Positions 5,772 to 11,423 of a DNA stretch of 21,892 bases are shown here, piece by piece. The position numbers and the translations under genes are program-made. The notes under the pieces were generated by a model. It was not told the origin of the DNA, ran no database searches, and saw nothing but the letters and a program-made list of their open reading frames with translations. The stretch comes from a virus: the IMG/VR virus record IMGVR_UViG_3300029309_000390, positions 1 through 21,892 of that record; one strand, given 5' to 3'. How positions within the stretch are numbered: the stretch's first letter is position 1; every line of letters starts with the position of its first letter.

Positions 5772-6019
5772 CTGTATCTCGCTGTCTTTCTTGCTATTTT
5801 TTTAGGCTGTTTGACAAATTGTTTTCCGGCTTTTTTACCTCTTCGCTTTGCTCTTGAGGTGGCTGCATATTCGCTGGCCGAAAGGGATTCAATAGCCGCC
5901 GTCGGGAGGTAACGCTCGCCTGTAGCTTTTGGACCCTGTGTCGAGGGTTTGCCACTCTTCGTCCTCCACTTCTGTTTTGTCCAGTTCATCAATGAGCGTT
6001 GTGACTTAGAGCGCGACAT
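5768..6019 (-). CDS. DUF5872-like basic protein
   Basis: An 83-residue, very basic protein. The N-terminus MSRSKSQRSLMNWTKQKWR, the middle KATGERYLPTAAIESLS, and a Lys/Arg-rich tail (KKAGKQFVKQPKKIARKT) match what I remember of the DUF5872 family, common in phages and metagenomes and without a known function. The composition suggests nucleic-acid binding, perhaps in the virion or on packaged DNA; that is inference. Its ATG overlaps the previous gene's TGA by one base (TGATG) and its end overlaps the next gene by four. Confidence 0.8.
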   Translation of the reverse strand: MSRSKSQRSLMNWTKQKWRTKSGKPSTQGPKATGERYLPTAAIESLSASEYAATSRAKRRGKKAGKQFVKQPKKIARKTARYR

Positions 6020-6168
6020 CAGGTGCCGACTTTCTTTTGAGCAGCCTTATGTGCCTTGGTAAATGATTGTCCTTTGGACATCAGGCTTCTCATAAATTTC
6101 ATGTGCTTTGATGAGTGATGCTTTGCATGCTTTAGCAAAGTTTTCTTTTGCCTTTCGCTGAGCTTCAT
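6019..6168 (-). CDS. Small basic phage protein (49 residues)
   Basis: Read directly from the sequence: MKLSERQKKTLLKHAKHH at the start and SKGQSFTKAHKAAQKKVGT at the end, rich in Lys and His. I recognise this as a small family common in marine phages, of unknown function. The ATG at 6168 overlaps the upstream stop by four bases (ATGA) and has a very strong ribosome site, GGAGGAGGT, five bases upstream, lying inside the last codons of the upstream gene. A longer competing frame over the same bases (6047-6256) lacks these supports. Confidence 0.8.
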   Translation of the reverse strand: MKLSERQKKTLLKHAKHHSSKHMKFMRSLMSKGQSFTKAHKAAQKKVGT

Positions 6169-6341
6169 CGGTAACCTCCTCCAGCTTTTTTGTATTGTAA
6201 AGCAAGCATCTGAGCTTTACGCGCTGACCACTGACCGGGAGCGCCACCTTTGCCACCAGCCTTGATGCGATTGAAAAGATTCTTACGCATCGTTGGCTTG
6301 GTATAGTTACCGGCTTCGTTTACGCGAGACTTCTTTTTCAT
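6165..6341 (-). CDS. Small basic phage protein (58 residues)
   Basis: The protein starts MKKKSRVNEAGNYTKPTMRK and ends KAQMLALQYKKAGGGYR, with GGKGGAPGQWSARKAQ in the middle. This is a short family I know from many marine phage contigs, always near packaging genes and without a known role. Its ATG at 6341 overlaps the upstream TAA by one base (TAATG). The last codons (GCT GGA GGA GGT) double as the ribosome site of the next gene, a compact coding/regulatory overlap. Strong positive charge suggests nucleic-acid contact, by inference. Confidence 0.82.
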   Translation of the reverse strand: MKKKSRVNEAGNYTKPTMRKNLFNRIKAGGKGGAPGQWSARKAQMLALQYKKAGGGYR

Positions 6342-8732: not shown

Positions 8733-9110
8733 CTAGCTTAGATCGATCGACACAGATATCTCACCTGCGTGTAGGTGCATCATCCTGTCCGGACTCTTGA
8801 AGCCAGCCCTGTCGAGGATGTCCTTGCTTGCCTCCAGCTGTACGTACTCTGACCGTGCGCCCTGTGCCAACTGCATTACCTTTGCAGCCGCTGTCGTAGC
8901 ATTCAGTCCTATCGTCTCAGATACTCTCTGCATCATATACTGTTGTACGTGTGGCAGCTTCAAAGCCTTACTGGCTGTCACTCTCCCGGCTTCACCCTTA
9001 GCGTACCCGGCGGCATGCGCTGCTTCTGTGATGCTACATCCTGTTGCTACAAGCGTATCCACCAGCGCAGTCTGTTTATCTGTCAGCTTTCGGGTTGCTA
9101 CATCAGTCAA
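8733..9110 (-). CDS. terS: Terminase small subunit
   Basis: The region KLTDKQTALVDTLVATGC, then ITEAAHAAGY, is the helix-turn-helix DNA-recognition domain typical of small terminases that select packaging DNA. It is followed by SKALKLPHVQQYM and a C-terminal region with DILDRAGFKSPDRM. Start choice is uncertain. TTG at 9110 (125 residues) has AAGGGGGG about 8 bases upstream. An ATG at 9233 gives 166 residues with a weak GGAAA site, but the extra residues (Cys- and Gly-rich) do not look coding. It is the first gene of the leftward packaging operon, directly downstream of the divergent control region. Confidence 0.82.
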   Translation of the reverse strand: MTDVATRKLTDKQTALVDTLVATGCSITEAAHAAGYAKGEAGRVTASKALKLPHVQQYMMQRVSETIGLNATTAAAKVMQLAQGARSEYVQLEASKDILDRAGFKSPDRMMHLHAGEISVSIDLS

Positions 9111-9268
9111 GGCTTCAGCCCCCCCTTGATCCCCCCCACGTTTACATACGGCAAAACCGCCTGTCAACGTACAAGAAGGCCGTCTACATTTACTTGTTTT
9201 GCTTTGCGTCGCGCTGAGTGGCCGTTGCGCCATTGTGTATTTCCACATCACGCCAACCCACCAGCAGC

Positions 9269-9316
9269 GCTTCTGGCAACCCTGATATTGTTGCATTTGC
9301 TAATGTTGCCAGAAGC
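9269..9316. repeat. 12-base perfect inverted repeat before terS
   Basis: GCTTCTGGCAAC at 9269-9280 is the exact reverse complement of GTTGCCAGAAGC at 9305-9316, with 24 bases between. It lies in the leader of the terS transcript. It could be an RNA stem, a repressor site or a terminase recognition site; nothing in the sequence decides. Confidence 0.6.
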
Positions 9317-9416
9317 TCTCGTGTACACAATGCCGGACGTTCCACCGCGCTCTCTTGCTCCGCAGGGTCTTTGCAGACGGCTTAATGTGTCTTCGCTACC
9401 GCTCGACTACTACTTA

Positions 9417-9498
9417 CAATCATTACCGTCAAAAACTGCTAAAAACGGTAAGCATTTGTGAGAATGTCCGGGCGTCGCATTGCTTCTTTCTAAGTCAT
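9417..9498 (-). pseudogene. Decayed copy of the start of the first early gene
   Basis: On the minus strand, ATG at 9498 is followed by ACT, then the stop TAG where the intact gene at 9808 has AAG, then AAA GAA GCA exactly as in the intact gene. After one extra codon the frame reads DILTNAY, identical to the intact protein, and then meets TAG again. The only base change within the DILTNAY codons is synonymous (AAT for AAC). The preserved upstream ribosome-site region and the premature stop fit a broken duplicate. Alternatively it is a leader kept for its RNA. Confidence 0.55.
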
Positions 9499-9612
9499 GC
9501 GTAAGCCTCCCAGACTCTGCTCACAGCCTCTGCCTAGGTTCCCAATCGGATCACATCTCCTCGCTCTTGTCATGCATCAACCGGCGACTGCCACGCTGTG
9601 CGACGACCGCGC
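9417..9612 (-). repeat. Left arm of inverted leader duplication
   Basis: Read on the minus strand, this arm contains in order GCGCGGTCG, GCATGACAAGAG (9564-9575), GGGAACC (9537-9543), a ribosome-site-like GGGAGGC (9505-9511), ATGACT (from 9498), and GACATTCTCACAAA (to about 9455). The same blocks occur in the same order on the plus strand at 9649-9887. The last strong block (9447-9469) matches its partner at 22 of 23 bases. Weak similarity continues to AATGATTG at 9417-9424. Confidence 0.7.
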
Positions 9613-9648
9613 TCCGCAGGGCGTCGGCAGAGCCTCCGCGTCTGCTTG

Positions 9649-9887
9649 GCGCGGTCGGGGATGTTTTACAGTGCGACGCCTATTGGACGCATGACAAGAG
9701 GACCGCGTCTCCGCGCGTCACGCGGAGGGCGGTCCCCACGGGGCTGCGGGATGCGATCACGAGGGAACCATACGGCAGATGCCGCAACCAGAGCCTAGGA
9801 GGCAAACATGACTAAGAAAGAAGCAACACGACTGGACATTCTCACAAACGCTTACCTTGTGATCATCAACTCTTACGACAATGATTG
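9649..9887 (+). repeat. Right arm of inverted leader duplication
   Basis: The plus-strand copy contains GCGCGGTCG (9649-9657), GCATGACAAGAG (9689-9700), GGGAACC (9763-9769), AGGAGGC (9797-9803), the ATG at 9808 and GGACATTCTCACAAACGCTT (within 9834-9856). It differs from the left arm mainly by an extra GC-rich hairpin segment at about 9701-9748. This arm is the functional leader and start of the first rightward gene. Confidence 0.7.
9700..9735 (+). other. GC-rich hairpin in early leader
   Basis: GGACCGC (9700-9706) pairs with GCGGTCC (9729-9735), and CTCCGCG (9709-9715) pairs with CGCGGAG (9721-9727), around a CGTCA loop, with a small internal bulge. No T-run follows, so it is not a standard terminator. 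It is missing from the left arm of the inverted duplication, so it was either inserted here or lost there. Confidence 0.6.
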
Positions 9888-10239
9888 GCGTAAAGAAAAC
9901 AAAGCTGCTGGTTTCTGTTATGCGATTTCGCGTGACATCGAGTTCAAGGAGAACCAACAGCGTAACCTCAAGGTTGAGATGGCTGCTTTGATGCCGACAA
10001 AAGGTGAGTCAACAGACAGTGACAATCCTTCCGAGGTTATCTCGATTCAGCTTGCACGCAAGTGGGACTTGTTCAACCTTGGTGCCATTGAGCTTGTCGA
10101 TCTGAATGAAGACCTCGACGCTGCCAAAGCGGCCTTCCTCGCCACCACAGGTGAGAAGTGGGTTCCAAAGCCCAAGCGCACTGGCCGCTCAGATGTTGGT
10201 GCTACAATGGCAGACATTGCCAAAGTGCTCGCTTCATAG
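9808..10239 (+). CDS. First early gene, hypothetical protein (143 residues)
   Basis: Starts MTKKEATRLDILTNAYLVI, with AGGAGGC five bases from the ATG. The body is mixed helical and charged. The end GATMADIAKVLAS looks like a short helix after a basic linker (KWVPKPKRTGRSD). I do not recognise it. It is the first gene of the rightward operon and is followed directly by a strong intrinsic terminator, so it may be expressed on its own, early and strongly, as expected for a host-takeover or regulatory protein; that is inference. A broken copy of its first codons lies on the other strand at 9417-9498. Confidence 0.8.
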   Translation: MTKKEATRLDILTNAYLVIINSYDNDWRKENKAAGFCYAISRDIEFKENQQRNLKVEMAALMPTKGESTDSDNPSEVISIQLARKWDLFNLGAIELVDLNEDLDAAKAAFLATTGEKWVPKPKRTGRSDVGATMADIAKVLAS

Positions 10240-10247
10240 ACCACAAG

Positions 10248-10281
10248 AGCCTCGGTGCTTCGGCATCGGGGCTTTTTCTTT
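10248..10281 (+). terminator. Rho-independent terminator with TTCG loop
   Basis: AGCCTCGGTGC pairs over 11 positions (two of them G-U) with GCATCGGGGCT around a TTCG tetraloop, followed by TTTTTCTTT. It lies nine bases after the first early gene's stop, so that gene can be a separate transcript, with later genes read by antitermination, leakage or a further promoter. Confidence 0.9.
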
Positions 10282-10639: not shown

Positions 10640-10932
10640 TGATGAGATCACGCGAAGATTATCTCGATCTAAAACTTTCCAAGGTCATTGATGCTATCGA
10701 CAAAGAGATCGATGTTCTCAAACACGTAGAACAAAATAGACCCGGTGATTTTATGGAAATGGCAGTGCGTAATGAAATCTTACAAAACATCATTGATGCA
10801 ATGCTGAGTGTTGGAACATATGGTGACAATGTTGATTGCACCAATGAATGTGATTACGCATCCCTACGAGCCGGTGAATGCGAATGCTTCAACCGCAAAC
10901 AAGATGAAATCGAATCGAGGTGTCCAGTATGA
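10639..10932 (+). CDS. Hypothetical protein with Cys-rich C-terminus (97 residues)
   Basis: Start ATG at 10639 overlaps the membrane protein's TGA (TGATG); a second ATG follows at once. The first 60 residues look like two long helices (LDLKLSKVIDAIDKEID, then EMAVRNEILQNIIDAML). The last third has six cysteines in CTNEC, CEC and a final C, a spacing that could bind a metal. I do not recognise the family. It overlaps the DnaA-like gene by four bases (ATGA), which suggests coupled expression and perhaps related function in replication. Confidence 0.7.
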   Translation: MMRSREDYLDLKLSKVIDAIDKEIDVLKHVEQNRPGDFMEMAVRNEILQNIIDAMLSVGTYGDNVDCTNECDYASLRAGECECFNRKQDEIESRCPV

Positions 10933-11423
10933 TCGATCAAGGTAGACTGATTGCACAGATTGTACTTGGTGTTTGCGAACTACGTAACTGCCAAGCCAAC
11001 AGCATCCTCGCACCACGTCGCCACAAGGAAGCGATGTACAACAGAATGTTGGTATATCTAATCGCTCACGATTATTGCCAACTGTCATACTCTGCTATTG
11101 GTAGAGTATTGAACCGGGATCACACCACGGTAATACACGGTGTGAAACGTGCGATTGGTGAATACGAAACCAACGCAGACTTTCGTAAGGACTACATCCA
11201 GCTCACACAGGAGGTCAGATTATGGATGGAACAACAACTCTCAACGACTTCGACTTCCCCGTCGAACTCGTTCCACTCTCGTGTCTTACAAGCGATGGAC
11301 ACAATATCGACGTACCCGAGAACATGTCCCGCGCCCTCATACGGCCAGATACACATGACGTGCTCGGTGTCCATGGTTCCAAGTACAGAATCACCACGCA
11401 CAGTCAGGTCGTTGACACGGTAG
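10929..11423 (+). CDS. Stand-alone DnaA domain IV-like DNA-binding protein
   Basis: 164 residues. SAIGRVLNRDHTTVIHGVKR at about 55-74 is the signature of DnaA domain IV, the helix-turn-helix that binds DnaA boxes. The preceding RRHKEAMYNRMLVYLIAHD matches the helices in front of it. There is no AAA+ ATPase domain, so this is only the DNA-binding part. It could recognise the phage origin or compete with host DnaA; this is inference. From about residue 99 on, the frame overlaps the DUF932 gene and reads as a Ser/Thr/Pro-rich tail unlike any domain. A GTG at 10920 could add three residues. Confidence 0.82.
   Translation: MIDQGRLIAQIVLGVCELRNCQANSILAPRRHKEAMYNRMLVYLIAHDYCQLSYSAIGRVLNRDHTTVIHGVKRAIGEYETNADFRKDYIQLTQEVRLWMEQQLSTTSTSPSNSFHSRVLQAMDTISTYPRTCPAPSYGQIHMTCSVSMVPSTESPRTVRSLTR

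Follow-up and report, generated by a model that had tools for sequence, protein, structure and literature searches.

Plasmids and phages encode cis-antisense RNAs, such as RNAII of pMV158, that are short, lie on the strand opposite their target and cover its translation start (PMC4485353). Obelisks and related viroid-like agents form an unbranched, bulged rod of ~1 kb, with the gene for a small helical protein in one arm (PMC11922315, PMC13096302). GOLLD, ROOL and similar RNAs in Rfam are large, highly structured and phage-borne, and long inverted repeats, including invertible switches, have two inverted arms around a small centre. The element described here has something in common with each of these: a family of uncultured marine phages keeps an imperfect hairpin of 0.3–1.4 kb over the start of the first early gene.

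The window (the whole stretch analysed, 21,892 nucleotides) is IMG/VR virus record IMGVR_UViG_3300029309_000390, classed as linear. Its late genes are on the minus strand, running outward from the small terminase subunit gene (terS), and the early genes are on the plus strand; the nearest cultured relative is the Pelagibacter phage Hodr, whose large terminase subunit (terL) is 64% identical. A first-pass annotation had reported a large inverted duplication here, and this is borne out by alignment of the reverse complement of 9400–9620 with 9640–9900, which gives a local score of 98, as against a mean of 17.4 and a maximum of 28 in 2000 dinucleotide-preserving shuffles of the same comparison. 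The repeat is the sole such site in the window, with scores elsewhere never above 23 in the same test. The sequence blocks that the annotation named are present at the coordinates it gave (9447–9469 matches 9834–9856 at 22 of 23 positions), both ATGACT[TA]AGAAAGAAGCA and GCATGACAAGAG are found in each arm, and the minus-strand copy keeps the ribosome-site region and ATG and reads ATG ACT TAG, with a stop as codon 3. The part of its interpretation that stands is the inverted copy of the early leader and early gene start, and its call for a comparison with relatives was warranted; its suggestions of a relic arm, a shared leader and a recombination switch fare less well, as described below. Coordinates are collected in Table 1.

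Table 1. The inverted repeat and its neighbours in the window
Feature	Position	Strand	Remarks
terS-domain ORF, first late gene	8733..9296	-	Pfam Terminase_2, 1.4e-9; PHROG 51
Candidate late (terS) promoter, TTGACA-17-TAAACG	9139..9167	-	Reads away from the rod; consensus match only
Whole rod, minus-strand G.U pairs allowed	~9401..9905	-	Continuous; apex near 9632
Left arm (strict)	9417..9557	-	Imperfect copy of early leader, ribosome site, ATG and ~26 codons, TAG as codon 3
Inner part of rod	9558..9749		Partly paired; holds the GCATGACAAGAG/CTCTTGTCATGC pair and a plus-arm side hairpin at ~9699-9737
Right arm (strict)	9750..9887	+	Leader (from -58) with ribosome site, then ATG and the first 26 codons of the early gene
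First early gene, 143 aa	9808..10239	+	Predicted helical-hairpin protein; homologous to relatives' first early genes
Stretch outside right end, ~36 nt	9888..9925		Synonymous change suppressed in relatives too; candidate minus-strand promoter, no consensus
Intrinsic-terminator-like hairpin	10245..10276	+	Immediately 3' of the early gene

Predicted RNA folds of 9401–9905 are strong on both strands, at -288.9 kcal/mol (z -17.0) for the minus strand and -242.2 kcal/mol (z -15.4) for the plus strand. Alignments lenient towards G.U pairs scored high in shuffles too, and the counts given below therefore come from strict alignments. One relative, L004 (terL 97% identical to that of the window), has the same arms, with the left arm 98% identical, and one block is altered in both arms jointly, GCATGACAAGAG/CTCTTGTCATGC becoming CGAGACAAAAG/CTTTTGTCTCG. 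The side hairpin inside the rod at 9699–9737 is a strong 36-base structure on the plus arm (GGACCGCG...GGCGGTCC); the left arm has no partner for it, and L004 retains it.

The product of the first early gene is predicted to form a helical hairpin (pLDDT 82.6). It has no significant match among PDB structures and no Pfam family at E<=0.001, with only weak matches, to PHROGs of unknown function; its top BFVD matches are to phage proteins that carry no functional name. Further downstream, 10920–11423 on the plus strand encodes a small early protein with the C-terminal helix-turn-helix domain of DnaA (Pfam 1.4e-13), the rest of DnaA being absent, and the phage also encodes an O-like initiator. Near the terS start, two C-runs on the plus strand (G-runs on the minus strand) flank a short spacer at 9118–9139, adjoining the putative late promoter; at the matching site in many relatives, CCCCCCTTGTGTTCCCCCCC precedes CTTGTCAACGCACAA.

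To place the repeat among relatives, 154 distinct terL-bearing contigs were oriented and the position of the strongest inverted repeat in each was recorded. In about 45 of them, including the isolate Hodr, the largest inverted repeat occupies the interval from the late terS promoter to the first early gene, with scores up to 809; background repeats elsewhere in these contigs score 24–60. About 22 contigs with adequate upstream sequence have no strong repeat; when scanned more leniently they yield peaks of modest size, several of them near the expected interval. The feature is common among terL-bearing contigs, its universality not being established. All 31 loci fetched through the related early-protein family, and having adequate upstream sequence, contain the repeat, with right arms that extend 41–74 nt beyond the first aligned codon; the alignment of this family (A1) is too diverse to scan the collection with. 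The right arm nearly always spans the ribosome site, the start codon and at least 20 codons, and in five phages (L111, L055, L157, L061 and L007) it spans the entire gene and ends 14–55 nt past the stop, which in L055 and L111 is just past the early gene terminator.

Distant relatives have a common architecture and no common sequence. The inverted repeat that Hodr carries in the corresponding interval is 694 nt long and unrelated; there (L005, ~5930–6200) the left arm enters the 5' part of terS, so that two divergent genes have mutually complementary 5' coding ends. An assembly artefact is ruled out, both by the presence of the rod in this isolate and by near-identical rods recovered from separate metagenomes (L203, L205–L207). 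Three contigs (L232–L234) binned in metagenome-assembled genomes as Gammaproteobacteria or Euryarchaeota carry this terminase, two of them (L232 and L233) with the rod too, and appear to be of phage and not of host origin.

The pairing of the arms bears several marks of selection. Close relatives conserve both arms at 94–99%, and L021 and L028 are 96–100% identical across most of the rod, as against 60–86% in the genes that follow. Synonymous differences among relatives amount to 10–16% in codons 1–32 versus ~25–40% beyond, and there are none in codons 1–27 between the window and L004. As a mean over 12 pairs of relatives, the low synonymous change persists for ~36 nt beyond the right end of the rod, a promoter-sized stretch. 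In a nine-sequence alignment 121 pairs are 99.5% paired, with 13 changed on both sides; double-change cells number 38, versus 14 in shuffles (none of 500 as high) and 0–3 when the partner is slid. Close pairs show ~21 double changes against 2.6 expected, 18 of which keep Watson-Crick pairing. Compensatory changes thus exceed the controls, as in a base-paired structure under selection. The mismatch rate does not differ between codon positions, and most mismatches therefore come from changes in the non-coding left arm. Between L203 and L204, whose early genes are 99.8% identical, 25 paired positions differ in the left arm and none in the right, possibly through recombination or fast change of the left arm.

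The length of perfect helices is capped as well. Perfect Watson-Crick runs are shorter than under random placement of interruptions (P<0.05 in 15 of 31 loci) and usually no longer than 15 bp, and with minus-strand G.U pairs counted the runs reach 23–33 bp in some rods. This capping may reflect an RNA duplex that is kept while a long perfect DNA palindrome is avoided. Taken together, the sequence comparisons establish a conserved two-arm element between the late promoter and the first early gene, with base pairing under selection. They rule out the proposal that one arm is a relic: both arms are conserved, paired bases covary, and dozens of relatives of unrelated sequence have the same layout.

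Which strand would act as the structured molecule is suggested by wobble pairs. Mismatches forming G.U on the minus strand number 390 in a set of 45 rods and those forming it on the plus strand 145, where composition would predict 296 of the 535 for the minus strand. Composition or mutation bias was considered as the cause and falls short of the 390 seen, leaving a correlation between regional strand composition and wobble asymmetry (Spearman 0.44). In counts split by position, for a set of loci that overlaps the 45 rods and is not identical to it, the region from -40 outward through the coding part has 309 minus-strand and 60 plus-strand G.U pairs (36 of 39 loci; 10 of 12 clades), the -40 boundary having been picked after binned counts were seen, so that its exact place should not be over-read. 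The apex has no such excess (104 versus 86), and wobble is neutral or weak in the AT-rich giants (L111 and L055) and in much of the Hodr group. From this asymmetry we infer a minus polarity: a minus-strand single strand is favoured and a plus-strand leader hairpin disfavoured, a polarity that is supported, not proven. One reading of the early transcript is that it would start inside the left arm, leaving the apex alone common to both transcripts.

Where a late terS promoter can be recognised, it is directed away from the rod; its site is level with the outer edge of the left arm or further left, except in the Hodr group, in which it falls within that arm. The first-pass suggestion that both outgoing transcripts share one leader is unsupported as stated, and a late-mRNA leader is ruled out for groups with a recognisable late promoter left of the rod.

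Our leading proposal, quite possible if short of probable, is that the element encodes an antisense RNA of the minus strand that is caged and would turn off the first early gene at the switch from early to late expression. The RNA would start close to the right arm's outer end, within the first early gene or, in some phages, just past it, and would run leftward across both arms. Its 5' arm would be perfectly antisense to the translation start of the early mRNA, the minus strand of the right arm being complementary to ribosome site and ATG, as in cis-antisense RNAs. Its 3' arm would be an imperfect mimic of the early mRNA, so that self-folding would give a bulged rod. Within this rod the pairing includes G.U pairs and bulges, while the early mRNA offers the antisense arm perfect complementarity, and for this reason that arm should favour the early mRNA once the rod is opened. 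Both the antisense action and the timing of the turn-off are guesses. A point against an antisense RNA is that in the giants the early gene's plus-strand terminator is soon followed by the end of the rod, which would suit a plus-strand unit equally well.

Of the other readings, the one that survives best, although we consider it rather unlikely, is that the element acts as DNA, as a single-stranded or cruciform hairpin that would serve, for example, in packaging, as a signal next to terS, or in replication, as an origin or single-strand initiation site. The rod does adjoin terS and lie upstream of the replication genes, the phage encodes both the DnaA C-terminal domain protein and the O-like initiator, and wobble at the apex is symmetric. 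Moreover, a sigma-70 promoter for the minus-strand RNA was sought to the right of the rod across relatives, and neither clustering nor a consensus was found. Against it, the arms traverse coding sequence and in five phages take in the whole early gene, and a strand asymmetry concentrated at the translation start and coding part is unexpected for duplex DNA.

Another reading is a plus-strand leader, in which the early mRNA would start left of the rod and its ribosome site would be locked in the hairpin for translational control of the first early gene. This is unlikely: although ribosome site and start codon are nearly always under the right arm and plus-strand RNA is predicted to fold strongly too, the G.U pairs that would keep it paired are the rare class (60 versus 309 outside the apex), with no plus preference in the apex, and the promoter-like plus-strand sites near the left end at some loci lack a consistent position. 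Quite improbable is a decoy, a left-going RNA from the apex that would carry the left-arm copy of the leader alone and titrate a factor or an antisense RNA binding the early mRNA; read on the minus strand, the left arm indeed retains a ribosome site, an ATG and further codons, but a factor-binding mimic requires no G.U bias toward antisense-strand pairing, and no promoter was identified at the apex. Least credible is a functionless, self-maintaining repeat, an old inverted duplication whose arms are kept alike by template switching or conversion, processes known for quasi-palindromes that would yield paired changes. Conversion leaves unexplained why synonymous change is suppressed, why wobble is in excess on the minus strand, why perfect runs are capped and why the repeat has a fixed position over the start codon in unrelated sequences.

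That the arms drift in sequence yet change together suggests a large structured element, of RNA (or DNA), hitherto undescribed. Covariance-model searches of Rfam 15 and searches of Pfam gave no match to it or its family, and the literature searched contains no description of such an element; what is conserved is its pairing and its place, not its sequence, and ordinary homology searches therefore miss it. If the caged antisense RNA is correct, marine phages may have a new class of giant rod RNAs, composed of a minus-strand antisense and a target mimic, that controls the first early gene. With the same reserve, such a class could be described as sequence-drifting, up to ~1.36 kb long, sometimes enclosing a whole gene, and DNA-encoded, with an Obelisk-like architecture. 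Throughout a marine phage family that includes Hodr, an isolate on a SAR11 host (HTCC1062), the element lies over the first early gene's start, and Hodr with this host makes it directly testable.

Among known systems, long inverted repeats and invertible switches resemble the element in their two inverted arms and small centre, but the phage arms are only ~80% alike, with capped perfect runs, and aligned relatives have no inverted centre and the same orientation throughout, so that the recombination switch of the first-pass annotation has no support. GOLLD, ROOL and their like are comparably large, structured and phage-borne; the phage rod differs from them in having no Rfam match, in being a single rod, and in a sequence that is not conserved between clades. 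With cis-antisense RNAs such as pMV158 RNAII the putative RNA would have in common its origin on the opposite strand over a translation start; those RNAs are short, whereas the phage element joins an antisense arm to a target mimic of several hundred bases in a predicted rod of 0.3–1.4 kb. The Obelisks and other viroid-like rods are similar in overall form to the phages whose right arm encloses the small helical protein gene (L111, L055, L157, L061 and L007). A rod-like fold of ~1 kb is seen in the longest rods only, with domains of 1155 nt in L061 and 1234 nt in L055 (the latter from a folded span cut at 1500) and >470 stacked levels, the window's rod of ~505 nt being outside this range. The GYxDxG motif of Oblin-1 is absent from the window protein and its relatives in A1, and is also missing in some Oblin-1 clades (PMC13096302). 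Unlike Obelisks, the phage rod has a fixed place in a DNA phage genome and is known here from DNA records; if it is an RNA, it would give phages a new means of controlling their first gene and viroid-like rods a counterpart encoded in DNA.
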